In this document: one piece after another, positions 1,091-11,674 of the stretch | Layout of the letters: each line of letters starts with the position of its first letter | Numbering within the stretch: position 1 is the stretch's first letter | Source of the DNA: Enterococcus sp. DIV0212c | Lineage (GTDB): Bacteria > Bacillota > Bacilli > Lactobacillales > Enterococcaceae | Assembly (NCBI RefSeq): GCF_017377505.1 | Contig: NZ_JAFREN010000024.1 | Span: 1 to 16,965 of the forward strand | Direction of reading: 5' to 3' | DNA length: 16,965 nt | Translations under genes and position numbers: made by a program | The notes under the pieces: generated by a model | Seen by the model: only the letters and a program-made list of their open reading frames with translations | Database searches by the model: none | Told to the model about the DNA's origin: nothing

Positions 1091-3256
1091 TTAGATGACA
1101 CAACTCTCACATTGGTTACTACCAATCTCTTCAGCATCATCCGTAAATGTTCGTACATAATAAATTGATTTAACACCTTTATGGAAAGCATAGTGGCGTA
1201 AAATATTCAAATCACGTGTTGTTTGTTTTGGTGAATCTTTCCATTCGTATAAACCTTCTGGAATTTCAGAACGCATAAACAATGTCAAACTCATTCCTTG
1301 ATCCACATGTTGTTGTGCTGTTGCATAAACATCGATTACTTTACGCATATCCATGTCATAAGCAGATGTGTAATAAGGAATCGTATCATTTGCTAGATGA
1401 GGAGCAGGGTAGTAAATTTTACCGATTTTCTTTTCTTGGCGCTCTTCGATCATACGAGTGATTGGGTGGATACTAGCACTTGTATCATTGATATAAGAAA
1501 TAGAGCCATTAGGTGCTACAGCTAAACGATTTTGGTGGTACAAGCCGTCTTTTTTCACTGCATCACGTAAGTTTGCCCAGTCTTCAGAAGTTGGAACAAA
1601 AATATCTTTAAAGATTTCTTTGACTTTATCTGATTGAGGAGTGAAGTCTCCTTCAATATATTTATCGAAATATGAACCATTAGCATAATCAGATTTTTCA
1701 AAATTATGGAATGTTTCGTTGTATTGTTTTGCAATGTTATTACTTTCTACTAAAGTCCAGTAGTTTAATAAAGTAAAGTAAACATTGGTAAAATCAAGTG
1801 AGTCTTTAGAGCCATATTCCATATGGTTTTTAGCAAAGAATGTATGCAGACCCATCGCGCCAAGTCCAATTGTATGACTTAATCGATTTCCGTTTTGAAT
1901 AGAAGGAACGACATCGATATCAGAGGCATCAGTAACAAAAGTTAACGCACGTGTCATTGCACGAACAGATTTACCAAAATCAGGGCTGTCCATCAAGTTG
2001 ACGATATTTGTTGAACCTAAGTTACAGCTGATGTCTGTACCAAGTGTTTCATATTCTTGTTTGCCATTTAAAACAGAAGGTGTTTGAACTTGTAGGATTT
2101 CTGAACATAAGTTACTCATAATGATTTTGCCATATGCAGGATTGCTTCTGTTGGCTGTATCGATATTGATGATATATGGGTAGCCAGATTCTTGTTGTAA
2201 TTTAGAAATTTCATTTTCTAGATCACGTGCTTTGATTTTACGTTTACGAATTTTAGGATTAGCAACTAGATTATCGTATTCTTTGGTAATATCAACGTAA
2301 GAGAAAGGCACGCCATACTCACGTTCTACACTATAAGGACTGAATAAGTACATATCTTCATTATTACGAGCTAATTCGTAAAACTTATCAGGAACCACAA
2401 CACCTAAAGATAAAGTCTTCACACGAACTTTTTCATCCGCATTTTCTTTTTTCGTTGATAGGAACATCTCGATATCTGGATGGAAAACGTTTAGGTAAAC
2501 AACTCCAGCACCTTGACGTTGACCTAATTGATTCGAATAACTAAAGCTATCTTCGAACAATTTCATAACAGGAACCACGCCGCTGGCAGCTCCTTCATAA
2601 CCTTTGATCGGTGCTCCTGCTTCACGTAAGTTTGCTAATGTGATCCCCACACCGCCGCCAATACGTGATAATTGTAAAGCGGAGTTGATTGAACGGCCAA
2701 TGCTGTTCATATCATCTGTCACTTGGATCAAGAAACAAGAAACAAGCTCGCCACGACGTTTACGTCCAGCATTTAAGAAAGAAGGTGTCGCAGGTTGGTA
2801 ACGTTGATGAATCATTTCATCCGCTAAAACCAAAGCCAATTCTTCATTGCCATCAGCAAAATACAATGCATTGAAAGCTACACGATCTTCATAGCTTTCT
2901 AAGTATTCAGTTCCTTCATTGTTTTTAAGCGCATATTGTGAATAAAACTTGTAAGCTGCCATAAATGATTTAAATTCAAAATTCTGTTCATCAAGAAATG
3001 TATATAATTGTTCAATAAAAGCCATAGAATATTTTTCAATAAATGCAGTTTCTAAATAATCATTGTCGATCAAGTAATTAATTTTTTCTTCTATAGTATT
3101 GAAAGTTCTTGTATTAGGAAGAACATTTTCTTTGAAGAAAGCTTCCAATGCTTCTTTATCCTTATGTAAAGGAATTTGTCCGTCAACAGGACGGTTGATC
3201 TCATTATTCAGCTTAAAATAGCTAACATCTTTAATTTCTTTTAGACTCAAGTTCAT
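1091..3256 (-). CDS. nrdE: class Ib ribonucleoside-diphosphate reductase alpha subunit NrdE
   Basis: Catalytic large subunit that reduces ribonucleoside diphosphates. It has 721 residues, as expected for NrdE; the short N-terminus lacks the ATP-cone of NrdA. Visible catalytic features are the redox cysteine pair C174 (in ELVSCFLIQ) and C411 (in DISCNLGST), the radical-site triad N382/C384/E386 in SNLCSEI, tandem tyrosines Y699-Y700 (SIYYVR) for radical transfer, and a C-terminal mobile pair C716/C719 (CESC) that is re-reduced by NrdH. The ATG at 3256 lies inside the end of nrdI, giving a 26-bp overlap and probable translational coupling; the local ribosome site is weak (AAGAAAG). Nothing is missing or broken. 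Its neighbours confirm the class Ib assignment. Confidence 0.97.
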   Translation of the reverse strand: MNLSLKEIKDVSYFKLNNEINRPVDGQIPLHKDKEALEAFFKENVLPNTRTFNTIEEKINYLIDNDYLETAFIEKYSMAFIEQLYTFLDEQNFEFKSFMAAYKFYSQYALKNNEGTEYLESYEDRVAFNALYFADGNEELALVLADEMIHQRYQPATPSFLNAGRKRRGELVSCFLIQVTDDMNSIGRSINSALQLSRIGGGVGITLANLREAGAPIKGYEGAASGVVPVMKLFEDSFSYSNQLGQRQGAGVVYLNVFHPDIEMFLSTKKENADEKVRVKTLSLGVVVPDKFYELARNNEDMYLFSPYSVEREYGVPFSYVDITKEYDNLVANPKIRKRKIKARDLENEISKLQQESGYPYIINIDTANRSNPAYGKIIMSNLCSEILQVQTPSVLNGKQEYETLGTDISCNLGSTNIVNLMDSPDFGKSVRAMTRALTFVTDASDIDVVPSIQNGNRLSHTIGLGAMGLHTFFAKNHMEYGSKDSLDFTNVYFTLLNYWTLVESNNIAKQYNETFHNFEKSDYANGSYFDKYIEGDFTPQSDKVKEIFKDIFVPTSEDWANLRDAVKKDGLYHQNRLAVAPNGSISYINDTSASIHPITRMIEERQEKKIGKIYYPAPHLANDTIPYYTSAYDMDMRKVIDVYATAQQHVDQGMSLTLFMRSEIPEGLYEWKDSPKQTTRDLNILRHYAFHKGVKSIYYVRTFTDDAEEIGSNQCESCVI

Positions 3257-3608
3257 TCACTACTTTCTTAAAGGATTCCACGTCTTCGTTCGTGCCGCTA
3301 AATTCAAAAGCAAAAAGCATCGGAACGTTGTAATCACGTGCTATGTCTTTGGCTGTATATACGTATAATTCTGCGAAATTGAGGTTGCCGCCTCCAGCGA
3401 CGCCTTGCAAATATTCTCGATTATTTTTGTAATCAAGAAAATCGTTCACTACTTCGGTAATTTCTTGGTCATAAGTAGGAACAACTAAGACAAAAGGCTC
3501 ATTTATCTCAAAAAAAGGATTCGCAGGCTCAATTTCGCAAGCTGCTAAATCCAATTTTTTAATGAAGCGTCTGGTTTGTCCGGTGACTGAAAAATAAACA
3601 ATTTTCAT
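3231..3608 (-). CDS. nrdI: NrdI, flavodoxin-like protein for class Ib RNR
   Basis: Small FMN protein that supplies the oxidant used to assemble the Mn(III)2-tyrosyl radical cofactor of NrdF. The 125-residue product starts with KIVYFSVTGQTRRF, the phosphate-binding loop of flavodoxin-like NrdI proteins, and has the glycine-rich FMN loop GVAGGGNLNFAELY at about residues 68-81. It begins 1 bp after the nrdH stop and overlaps nrdE by 26 bp, so nrdH-I-E are tightly coupled. NrdI needs an electron source; the FNR-type reductase at 11717-12730 is a possible one (inference). Family and role are well established; identification is secure. Confidence 0.95.
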   Translation of the reverse strand: MKIVYFSVTGQTRRFIKKLDLAACEIEPANPFFEINEPFVLVVPTYDQEITEVVNDFLDYKNNREYLQGVAGGGNLNFAELYVYTAKDIARDYNVPMLFAFEFSGTNEDVESFKKVVNELESKRN

Positions 3609-9180: not shown

Positions 9181-10062
9181 ATGAAAAAGAAACTTATTTA
9201 TTCATTTATACTATTAGCAGGACTATCTCTAGCTGCTTGTGGAGGAAAAGGCAAGACAGTTGACAGTTCAACTACAACTAAAAGCACTGAAAAAACAAGT
9301 CAAACAAGTACATCAAATAGTAGTACAACAAAATCTAGTATGAGCCAAAGTTCAACAAACGCATCAACATCTTCAATTACGTCTGAAACAAAAACGAGCG
9401 AAAGCCAATCTGCTGTCAAATCAGATAATAATTCACCTGCAAACCAAGCTGAAACTGTATTAAATAATTTGAAAGCAGCATTTCCAAATGATGCTTTACC
9501 ACAAGCAATATTAACAAGTAAAACAGCAAAATATTTAACTGCTGCAACGACGAGTCCTGCTGATCAAGGGAATTTCAGAGTTTTATATTACGCTGAAGAT
9601 CACGGGATTGCAGTGAATGATCTTGCAGTCAACGACTTACAACCGATCGCCTCATTTGAGAAAAAAACGTATGATTCAAATGAATCTGCTGCTAGTGCAG
9701 TCAATCAAATCATCGATAACGGTGGAAGCCAAATCGATTTAGGCTATGGAATTACAGGATATCAACAAGGCGCCGCAGGATCTAGCTATTTATCATGGCA
9801 AGAAGGAAATTGGAGTATGGTAGTTAGAGCCTCAAATATTGGCGGTGAAGTAGCTGAACCACTAGCTAAGGAAGTCGTGACTTATTTAGAAAAAGCGATG
9901 CTTCCAGCTCCTCAAAGCGTTGGGCAGATTTCTTTAACCGCTAGTATAAGTGATAGCTATCAAAATAATTCAGTCGTTTGGCAAAAAGGGACGACAGTCT
10001 ACACAGTTCAACACTTTGATGCCTTACAAGCACTCAAAATGACTGTATCGACAAATCAATGA
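9181..10062 (+). CDS. Ser/Thr-rich lipoprotein of unknown function
   Basis: 293-residue membrane-anchored lipoprotein. The N-terminus has positive charges (MKKK), a hydrophobic core and a lipobox ending LAAC, with lipidation at Cys20. Residues 25-92 are a low-complexity linker dominated by Ser, Thr, Lys and Asn, of the kind that spaces a domain away from the membrane through the wall. Residues 93-293 form a folded domain containing AAFPNDALPQAILTS and GYGITGYQQGAAGSSYLSW; I do not recognise a named family. ATG 9181 follows AGGAGGGG. It is probably monocistronic; no strong promoter or terminator is clear, only a weak ATTAGT/ACTAAT hairpin (10098-10127) behind it. It is not a classical ABC solute-binding protein by size or motifs. 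Confidence 0.88.
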   Translation: MKKKLIYSFILLAGLSLAACGGKGKTVDSSTTTKSTEKTSQTSTSNSSTTKSSMSQSSTNASTSSITSETKTSESQSAVKSDNNSPANQAETVLNNLKAAFPNDALPQAILTSKTAKYLTAATTSPADQGNFRVLYYAEDHGIAVNDLAVNDLQPIASFEKKTYDSNESAASAVNQIIDNGGSQIDLGYGITGYQQGAAGSSYLSWQEGNWSMVVRASNIGGEVAEPLAKEVVTYLEKAMLPAPQSVGQISLTASISDSYQNNSVVWQKGTTVYTVQHFDALQALKMTVSTNQ

Positions 10063-10211
10063 TTTCAATAATTATTTTCTAACAACCCAAACGAAGTATT
10101 AGTCGGTTAATAAGAAATTCTACTAATCAAAAAATAATAAGAAAAGCCTTGTGCCTGTTATTTCTTTCAAGAAAGATCGATTTTCAATGAAAAAATAAAG
10201 CAGAATCATCA

Positions 10212-10241
10212 TTGACGAAACATTCACTCATCTTGTACAAT
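10212..10241 (+). promoter_or_regulatory. promoter of the structured RNA gene
   Basis: TTGACG (10212-10217), 18-bp spacer, TACAAT (10236-10241). Predicted start near 10248. An inverted repeat TGTAC-AATGA-GTACA (10234-10248) covers the -10 and the start site and could be an operator. Confidence 0.65.
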
Positions 10242-10247
10242 GAGTAC

Positions 10248-10500
10248 ATGATAGAAGCGAAATAATAAAATAAAAAGGCACTTCACAATTTGGTGGCCGC
10301 CAAATTGCGAAGCCCTGATAAGTCAGCAGACACTGACCAATCAAGTTGCCCTCGTCAATGCAAAAGCACTGACATGATTCATTGTACTCAATTTTTAGGA
10401 AAATATCTACCCCTAAAAATACACGAGATGACGAACATGCCAGCGTTTACTTATTGAACGATACAACGGTATTGGAAGGAATTCTGATACCGTTTTTTAT
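10248..10500 (+). ncRNA. structured non-coding RNA, family not recognised
   Basis: About 250 nt bounded by a promoter and a terminator, with no ORF. Helices seen: GGCACTTC-A-CAATTTGG, loop TGGCCG, CCAAATTG-C-GAAG-CC (10277-10314); GTCAG/CTGAC (10322-10337); ATTTTTAGG/CCTAAAAAT (10391-10420) with outer TGTA/TACA; TCGTCA (10352-10357) with TGACGA (10429-10434); AACGGTAT/ATACCGTT (10465-10494) followed by T6 and ATTTTTG, the terminator. GGCA(C)TT can alternatively pair with AAGTTGCC (10343-10350). GATAGAAGC (10250-10258) is also complementary to 10505-10513, just past the terminator. It lacks the hallmarks I know of RNase P RNA, tmRNA and SRP RNA; 6S-like RNA or a new sRNA remain possible. No gene follows on the same strand closely enough for a riboswitch. 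Confidence 0.6.
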
Positions 10501-10504
10501 TTTT
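10465..10504 (+). terminator. terminator of the structured RNA gene
   Basis: AACGGTAT (10465-10472) / ATACCGTT (10487-10494) with a 14-nt loop, followed by TTTTTTATTTTTG. A clear rightward rho-independent terminator. Confidence 0.75.
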
Positions 10505-10537
10505 GCTTCTATCTACTGTTATAAATATCCTTGTTAG

Positions 10538-10722
10538 TTGTACTTAGATATAGGAGCTGGGTATGATTTAACGTTTGGGGATGTATTGGATAAAGTCTAT
10601 CACTATAGGCATTTGATTTATCTATTGGGGAAGAAAATCAACGACTGAAAAAATGGGTTCGTTTAAAATCAGAAGGAACTCTTGTTACCTATAGTGATAG
10701 CTTTAAACAAAAGTATAAGTGA
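10538..10722 (+). pseudogene. decayed coding remnant, unidentified
   Basis: Two short reading frames appear to continue each other after a frameshift. 10538-10648 contains GAGYDLTFGDVLDKVYHYR; 10609-10722 contains GEENQRLKKWVRLKSEGT and ends in a Lys-rich tail with TGA at 10720-10722. Neither has a start codon with a ribosome site. The composition looks protein-like but I do not recognise the family. A long inverted repeat (10592-10609 with 10688-10704) overlaps it. A further in-frame scrap (ITTEAIETLKKIKN) lies near 10755-10800. This could be an old gene remnant or chance coding; confidence is low. Confidence 0.35.
10592..10704. repeat. long inverted repeat with 78-bp interior
   Basis: CTATCACTATAGG (10597-10609) is the exact reverse complement of CCTATAGTGATAG (10688-10700); after one extra T, AAAG (10592-10595) and CTTT (10701-10704) extend the arms to 17 bp. 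No T-run follows, so it is not a normal terminator. It may be a remnant of a small mobile element or an RNA hairpin. Confidence 0.6.
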
Positions 10723-10839
10723 ATGTCATATACTTTGAACTTATTATAATATAAGAATTACTACCGAAGCAATTGAAACGCTGAAAAAAATAAAAAATCT
10801 TGTTTTAAGAAGGTTCTGCCTTTACTGCAATAAATACAA

Positions 10840-11431: not shown

Positions 11432-11674
11432 ATGAATCCATTAATAGAATGCTGTGAACAAAATTTAGCTAAAGGTGCAGAACTATTGTTGAATGACCCT
11501 TTTATCGAGGAAAACGGTGATGTAATCTCTTATTCCTGTATGAATGAATGTGTCCTTTGTGCCCAAACGTTCTTTGTTTTGTTCGAAGGTGAGCGTATTA
11601 CCGGTGCTACACCAGAAGAACTGGTTGAAAATATAAAAAAAGCCATTGTATTATGGCAGGAAGATATGGGTTAA
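11432..11674 (+). CDS. DUF1450 family protein (YuzB-like)
   Basis: 80-residue cytoplasmic protein. It resembles B. subtilis YuzB from memory: start MNPLIECCEQNLAKGAELL, a central Cys cluster SYSCMNECVLCAQTFF (Cys at about 36, 40 and 43), then GERITGATPEELVENI. Function is not established; the cysteine spacing suggests a metal or redox site. The ATG follows AAGGAG. It ends at a bidirectional terminator shared with the convergent FNR gene. Partnership with that reductase is inference from position only. Confidence 0.85.
   Translation: MNPLIECCEQNLAKGAELLLNDPFIEENGDVISYSCMNECVLCAQTFFVLFEGERITGATPEELVENIKKAIVLWQEDMG

Follow-up and report, generated by a model that had tools for sequence, protein, structure and literature searches.

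Introduction

LhrC of Listeria is a multicopy family of sibling small RNAs (sRNAs) of Gram-positive bacteria, and pairs of antisense RNAs are familiar from plasmid copy control and from type I toxin–antitoxin systems. The enterococcal locus described here resembles sibling families such as LhrC in that a genome has several similar genes of this kind, every one of them with a promoter and a terminator to itself; 11 such homologous copies were found in the genome that carries it. It also recalls the antisense pairs, in that its two promoters predict two fully overlapping transcripts of opposite direction.

The locus lies in a stretch of 16,965 nt from Enterococcus sp. DIV0212c (contig NZ_JAFREN010000024.1), referred to below as the window. 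A preliminary description, made from the sequence alone, had placed an orphan structured RNA gene of about 250 nt on the plus strand at 10248–10513. We find that the flagged spot is a real small structured RNA gene without an Rfam family, but that it is encoded on the minus strand, is shorter than described and is one of many sister genes.

Results

Organization and Conservation of the Locus

Read on the minus strand, the locus presents, in order, a conserved promoter (TAGATA-17-TACAAT), a hairpin, a three-way junction and a T-run terminator, which together predict an RNA of ≈105 nt read leftwards from its own promoter. A second promoter and terminator lie on the plus strand. The features are, in window positions:

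10404..10409, minus strand: -35-like box TAGATA (identical in 15/15 orthologues), followed by a 17-nt spacer (14/15)
10381..10386, minus strand: -10 box TACAAT of the small RNA (identical in 15/15 orthologues; also the consensus of 80 non-redundant copies)
10270..10374, minus strand: small RNA of ≈105 nt with both ends predicted, comprising hairpin P4, the three-way junction P1/P3/P2 and a U-run (from fold, consensus and covariation)
10354..10373, minus strand: hairpin P4, 8 pairs (window fold; covariation)
10348-10353 / 10274-10279, minus strand: helix P1, which with P2 and the T-run makes up the terminator
10346..10347, minus strand: junction AA separating P1 from P3 (unpaired in window fold and consensus)
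10314..10345, minus strand: helix P3 with its loop (window fold and minus-strand consensus)
10280..10313, minus strand: helix P2, 14 pairs (window fold and minus-strand consensus)
10212..10241, plus strand: second promoter TTGACG-18-TACAAT (TTGACG 10212-10217, TACAAT 10236-10241), sigma-70-like; both hexamers in 15/15 orthologues
10249..10496, plus strand: putative counter-transcript of ≈250 nt covering the small RNA, predicted from the plus-strand promoter and terminator
10465..10494, plus strand: terminator hairpin P6, then a T-run; no other hairpin folds in the consensus made from 58 non-redundant copies
10250..10258, plus strand: left arm GATAGAAGC of the outer inverted repeat, covarying with the right arm
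10505..10513, plus strand: right arm GCTTCTATC of the outer inverted repeat, covarying with the left arm

The plus-strand sequence AAAAAGGCAC, read on the minus strand, is the terminator GUGCCUUUUU, and ATTGTAC...TTTCTAG likewise becomes a promoter, whose consensus across 80 non-redundant copies is TAGAAA-17-TACAAT. At the -35 box the family consensus reads TAGAAA, compared to TAGATA in the window copy and its orthologues, and the minus-strand box agrees with the -35 consensus TTGACA at only 4/6 positions. A loose -10 pattern was found in 128/150 entries and missed in 22/150; this set, which was also used for the counts of the outer repeat, the plus-strand promoter and the T-run below, includes orthologues and some doubles. 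By eye, the window copy and 10 other copies in its own genome have a similar pair of minus-strand boxes. The -35 box is flanked by an inverted repeat, TTTTTAGG / CCTAAAAA (10392-10399 / 10412-10419), which, judged from the sequence, is a possible operator; what had been taken for a helix with a C-rich bulge after TTTTTAGG is this same repeat.

Positions 10200–10499 form an island of conservation, with 84–98% identity per 25-nt bin across 14 orthologues from the same genus. Identity is 76% in the bin directly after 10499 and 51–63% in the adjoining bins at 10050–10174 and 10525–10599, while the end of the lipoprotein gene reaches 68–80%. Conservation is not limited to the island: 10600–10649 (89–94%) and 10725–10749 (90%), where there is no annotated plus-strand gene, are also conserved in the 14 orthologous loci. 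These loci are flanked by pgpA (14/14) and by the lipoprotein gene (12/14). The locus copy is present in 15/22 genomes of the genus and absent from 7/22, in which the best match had an E-value of 0.017; both neighbours are present at six of these seven loci, and the remaining one is cut off. Judged by sequence and neighbours, the bearers apparently include E. moraviensis, E. ureasiticus, E. quebecensis, E. plantarum, E. termitis, E. ureilyticus and E. rivorum.

Structure and Strand

The alignment drew on 51 reference sequences, from which duplicates and nine orthologues had been removed beforehand; 35 of the 51 were aligned. In these 35 sequences, 83.8% of the cells of structure P1–P4 were paired, compared to 19.9–35.9% when the structure was slid, and 23/37 pairs showed double-sided changes. 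The covariation score was 0.284 against 0.140 in shuffles; by one further measure, the number of additional pair types, the alignment was not higher than the shuffles (44 and 47.4, respectively). Covariation thus supports a structure in the region, as the preliminary description had supposed, but the selected fold is that of the minus strand. For the minus-strand alignment the consensus energy was -27.7 kcal/mol, and 20 of its 32 pairs had double-sided changes, whereas the plus-strand consensus (RNAalifold) reached only -8.2 kcal/mol. Among 59 distinct copies the minus-strand energy was lower in 58 (mean -41.2 vs -28.6 kcal/mol), with a mean strand difference of -12.7 kcal/mol compared to -5.3 kcal/mol in shuffled sequence. 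The window copy (10374-10270) folded at -53.1 kcal/mol (z -7.8) on the minus strand and at -35.2 kcal/mol (z -4.6) on the plus strand. For the whole flagged region, the minus strand gave -91.1 kcal/mol (z -7.7); the plus-strand fold of 10248–10505 (-74.4 kcal/mol, z -7.5) is likewise far more stable than that of shuffled sequence.

Mismatches in the paired columns pointed the same way. Read on the plus strand, 125 copies contained 389 A.C mismatches against 97 G.U. In the 35-sequence set the plus strand had 127 A.C and 33 G.U, while shuffles predicted 171 and 86; since the shuffles also predict an excess of A.C, the bias is partly compositional. The sequence C-A-A-C-U-U is invariant in 35/35 aligned sequences, and the junction AA sits in the minus-strand context GGC-AA-CUUG.

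An alternative pairing of GGCACTT with AAGTTGCC (GGCACUU/AAGUUGCC) had been proposed as a sign of conformational switching. The helix could indeed form in 96.3% of cells in the 35 sequences, but only 1/7 of its pairs showed a double-sided change. Conformational switching thus has almost no covariation to support it.

Promoter, Terminator and Outer Repeat on the Plus Strand

Several plus-strand observations of the preliminary description were borne out. The promoter hexamers TTGACG and TACAAT and the terminator hairpin with its T-run are present, though the counts of such sites in the region are not above chance (promoter-like, 7 vs 5.8 in shuffles; terminator-like, 2 vs 1.0). The next plus-strand ORF of ≥60 aa starts at 11432, and on neither strand do all 15 orthologues share an ORF of ≥12 codons with a ribosome-site-like sequence. 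A frame of 54–55 codons starting with TTG is open in only 5/15 orthologues. A type I toxin–antitoxin system, with a toxin mRNA on the plus strand and an antitoxin RNA on the minus strand, would account for the two overlapping, opposite transcripts predicted here, but would require a toxin frame; this explanation was rejected because no common ORF exists in the 15 orthologues, and it is almost certainly wrong.

The plus-strand promoter occurs in a minority of copies, 4/11 in the window's own genome (by eye) and 17/150 entries (loose pattern), which means that the family as a whole cannot be controlled by a counter-RNA. A T-run follows on the plus strand in 91/150 entries, and the consensus of 58 copies, for which the T-run was itself a selection criterion, folds a single hairpin, P6, before it. 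The arms of the outer inverted repeat change together in orthologues (GAAGC/GCTTC, GAAGT/ACTTC). Only 4/12 and 14/58 representatives, however, exceed the 95th percentile of swapped pairs, and the repeat is clear in 28/150 entries; it therefore marks a subset of the family.

We considered whether a single plus-strand RNA of ≈250 nt might be the functional molecule. The promoter hexamers, the covarying outer repeat and the z-score of the plus-strand fold are in its favour, but the energies and mismatch counts favour the minus strand, and most copies are without the plus-strand promoter. This interpretation is very unlikely, and a plus-strand RNA with paired ends was retained only as the counter-transcript.

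Copy Number and Distribution

Paralogues of the window copy were found with BLAST, and a covariance model, R1, was built from the 35 aligned copies and structure P1–P4. Of the 13 rows that R1 returned in the window's genome, 11 are copies; the other two are an echo of the window copy on the opposite strand and a weak, partial match. The gene is hence no orphan, and all 22/22 genomes of the genus have matches (6–37 each, opposite-strand echoes included). At the family level 61/105 genomes were positive and at the order level 73/395; at the class level there were 3/398, all belonging to the same order, and a spread beyond the order was rejected. A scan of 80 of the 89 stretches found with an exact pattern gave 177 rows, from which 125 copies were kept (>42 bits); the 52 dropped rows were mostly opposite-strand echoes, plus a few possible weak copies. 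Hosts of the exact pattern include Enterococcus, Tetragenococcus, Vagococcus, Listeria goaensis, a Streptococcaceae MAG and one Bacillus contig.

Carriage by phages or plasmids was considered and rejected: there was 1 match in 50,697 phage records and 1 in 72,556 plasmid records, and the exact pattern gave 0 matches in viral contigs. The phage record, OR847221.1 (L146), is labelled “Listeria phage”, and its RNA match has the same query range and identity as that in an E. faecium plasmid record; it may represent enterococcal contamination.

In Rfam 15, only a tRNA-Lys elsewhere in the window reached the gathering score, which agrees with the earlier statement that the element shows no hallmarks of RNase P, tmRNA or SRP RNA and also speaks against 6S RNA, and the best match within 10150–10620 at E ≤ 10 had an E-value of 1. 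The matches of one cassette copy, to rliE (E 0.17) and STnc370 (E 0.63), remained well below gathering, and in 26 RNA loci only rli117 was matched, elsewhere in those loci.

Tandem pairs of the RNA ≈300–450 nt apart, often ahead of a gene for a protein of ≈95 aa, were seen in 12 stretches (L056, L060, L065, L067, L069, L078, L089, L096, L104, L108, L109 and L132). In L066, near 2070–3457, an IS110-type transposase gene (DEDD_Tnp_IS110) follows an RNA copy that breaks off within the P4 region, and the sequence looks as if the element had inserted there. L048 resembles this arrangement; the domain scan covered the L066 copy only.

The number of copies and the T-runs on both strands might suggest a MITE-like mobile element, or a terminator or insulator repeat, with no function as an RNA. 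Some copies have an inverted repeat close to their ends, and in other genomes there are sites without the element; both could be read in the same sense. One locus, however, is kept in 15/22 genomes of the genus at 84–98% identity, homology extends past the inverted repeat into the plus-strand promoter, and the internal promoter and the junction are conserved. Flanking target-site duplications were not seen by eye, though the empty sites are too diverged for a firm negative. We regard such an element as distinctly improbable.

Genomic Neighbourhoods

Among the 125 copies, 35 ORF ends fall within -30 to +10 nt of the start of the RNA core. Thirty-two of the 35 adjoining proteins were scanned against Pfam, two near-repeats and one edge fragment being left out. 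Most had no family; the others matched DUF2247 (4), KptA (3), SUFU (1), Fic (1) and colicin immunity (1). The 23 proteins encoded just upstream of these included EndoU (5), LXG (3), CdiA_C (2) and PT-TG (2) and single cases of others. By their sequences, many copies elsewhere thus abut genes of polymorphic toxin–immunity cassettes. LXG toxins were tried as a driver of RNA copy number and discarded (rho -0.06 in 22 genomes). L066, L064, L105 and L113 contain arrays built from pieces of toxin and immunity genes, with a copy of the RNA gene closing one unit after another; such copies could serve as homology for recombination.

These positions raise the main rival to a trans-acting RNA, namely that the minus-strand RNA acts as a cis-antisense RNA, pairing mainly with the 3′ UTR of the upstream plus-strand gene and altering its stability or termination. 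The targets would be the toxin–immunity operons elsewhere and, at the window copy, the lipoprotein gene at 9181–10062. The 35 closely placed ORF ends are consistent with this, as is the possibility that P6 would terminate the upstream mRNA; in G013, which is without the RNA, the lipoprotein gene has a P6-like terminator behind it. In copies outside the tight set, however, the left neighbour is on the plus strand in just 33/67, so the RNA does not as a rule lie antisense behind a gene, and a general rule of this kind was abandoned. Some copies, moreover, have a plus-strand promoter of their own, and plain antisense action needs no conservation of a fold. Cis-antisense action is an unlikely main mode, but it may hold for the cassette copies.

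The second recurrent neighbour is the protein of ≈95 aa (encoded, e.g., at L065:4714-5004 (-), L095:330-605 (-) and L080:4723-4992 (+)), whose gene is preceded by 27/125 RNA copies. How many RNA matches a genome has tracks this gene (rho 0.80, 22 genomes). Among the best 30 genome matches of the protein that were listed, at least 28 have an RNA copy within 1 kb (by eye), and in those 28 the minus-strand RNA is always divergent from the gene. The protein occurs in 39/105 family-level genomes, 37 of which also have the RNA, and 24 of the 61 RNA-bearing genomes are without it. It has 89 homologues at E ≤ 0.001. In the three proteins scanned against Pfam and NCBIfam no family exceeded the cut-off; the predicted structure is all-helical (pLDDT 78.2) and had no match in the PDB at E ≤ 0.001. 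The window's genome contains four matches to the protein, while a tblastn search of the window with 33 sequences gave none.

Since 27/125 copies precede this gene, the RNA might be a cis-acting leader, that is, a riboswitch or attenuator, of a neighbour such as the ≈95-aa gene. Both fold and promoter point away from that gene, however, and the window copy is without it. The idea was dropped once the strand evidence favoured the minus strand, and we consider it extremely unlikely.

On the opposite side from the new RNA, rli117 (RF02909) directly follows the ≈95-aa gene in 8/12 matches. This Listeria sRNA also occurs in toxin loci of Enterococcus and Bacillus, at L095:59-291 (-), L076:4306-4558 (-), L137:2773-3032 (+) and L142:1561-1815 (+), among others.

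Discussion

The locus is conserved in sequence at both promoters and both terminators, it belongs to a family, and that family maintains a structure on the minus strand. From these elements we infer transcription, its exact ends, protein binding and control by a counter-transcript, and on balance we think it probable that the locus is a member of a multicopy small-RNA family and that its structured minus-strand RNA acts in trans and, at this copy, is opposed by a counter-transcript. The sigma-70-like promoter at 10409–10381 would start an RNA of ≈105 nt near 10374, which would form a hairpin at its 5′ end, then a compact three-way junction that includes the invariant unpaired AA, and would end at its own T-run near 10270. 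At the window copy, the plus-strand promoter would produce a counter-transcript of ≈250 nt running over the small RNA and ending at P6. The small RNA may be a trans-acting regulator that is structured and probably bound by a protein; a protein-binding RNA is the first choice because the fold is kept while the loops vary. The counter-transcript might titrate the small RNA or interfere with its transcription, as suggested by the conservation of an opposite promoter that would yield a fully complementary RNA.

A wider scheme can be sketched, to which we attach little probability. Dozens of sibling sRNAs would form a high-copy RNA system; some would have an antisense counter-RNA dedicated to them, and many would be accompanied by the ≈95-aa protein as a partner. 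Within toxin cassettes, the gene for the RNA would lie antisense in the 3′ UTR of the toxin–immunity mRNA, and stand-alone copies could regulate the toxin arsenal or help cassettes to recombine via the shared RNA module.

Searches of open-access papers (including PMC12870237, PMC5593968, PMC7724050, PMC3166299, PMC8631354, PMC5689173 and PMC6901971) brought up no multicopy sRNA family like this one; individual members may already be listed in supplementary tables of published sRNAs. An RNA family found in 22/22 genomes of a genus, with neither an Rfam family nor a description in the papers searched, would amount to a major omission from the annotation of enterococci. The case also shows that reading the wrong strand can hide an RNA gene. 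The position of the copies at the ends of toxin–immunity cassettes and beside a conserved, uncharacterised protein offers an entry to a possible RNA control of bacterial antagonism.

Among known enterococcal small RNAs, Ern0160 of E. faecium and Ref19C of E. faecalis, which lie beside queA, were first considered because one copy of the new family is also near queA. In that genome, G023, the copy is on the other side of queA, and R1 had no match in the gap between queA and the ATPase-like gene of the related genomes L193, L194, L196 and L198 (filters off, E ≤ 1). Membership was therefore rejected, the two being set apart by place and model, not by alignment. The rli117 RNA shares the toxin and immunity neighbourhoods of the new RNA, yet is a separate RNA. 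The antisense pairs differ from the present locus in that here there is neither a peptide ORF nor a replicon, and the conserved fold is that of the short minus-strand RNA. Compared to LhrC, the new RNA matches no Rfam family, is more numerous, with 6–37 matches per genome of the genus, adjoins toxin–immunity genes and the ≈95-aa gene, and in some copies faces a conserved opposite promoter.
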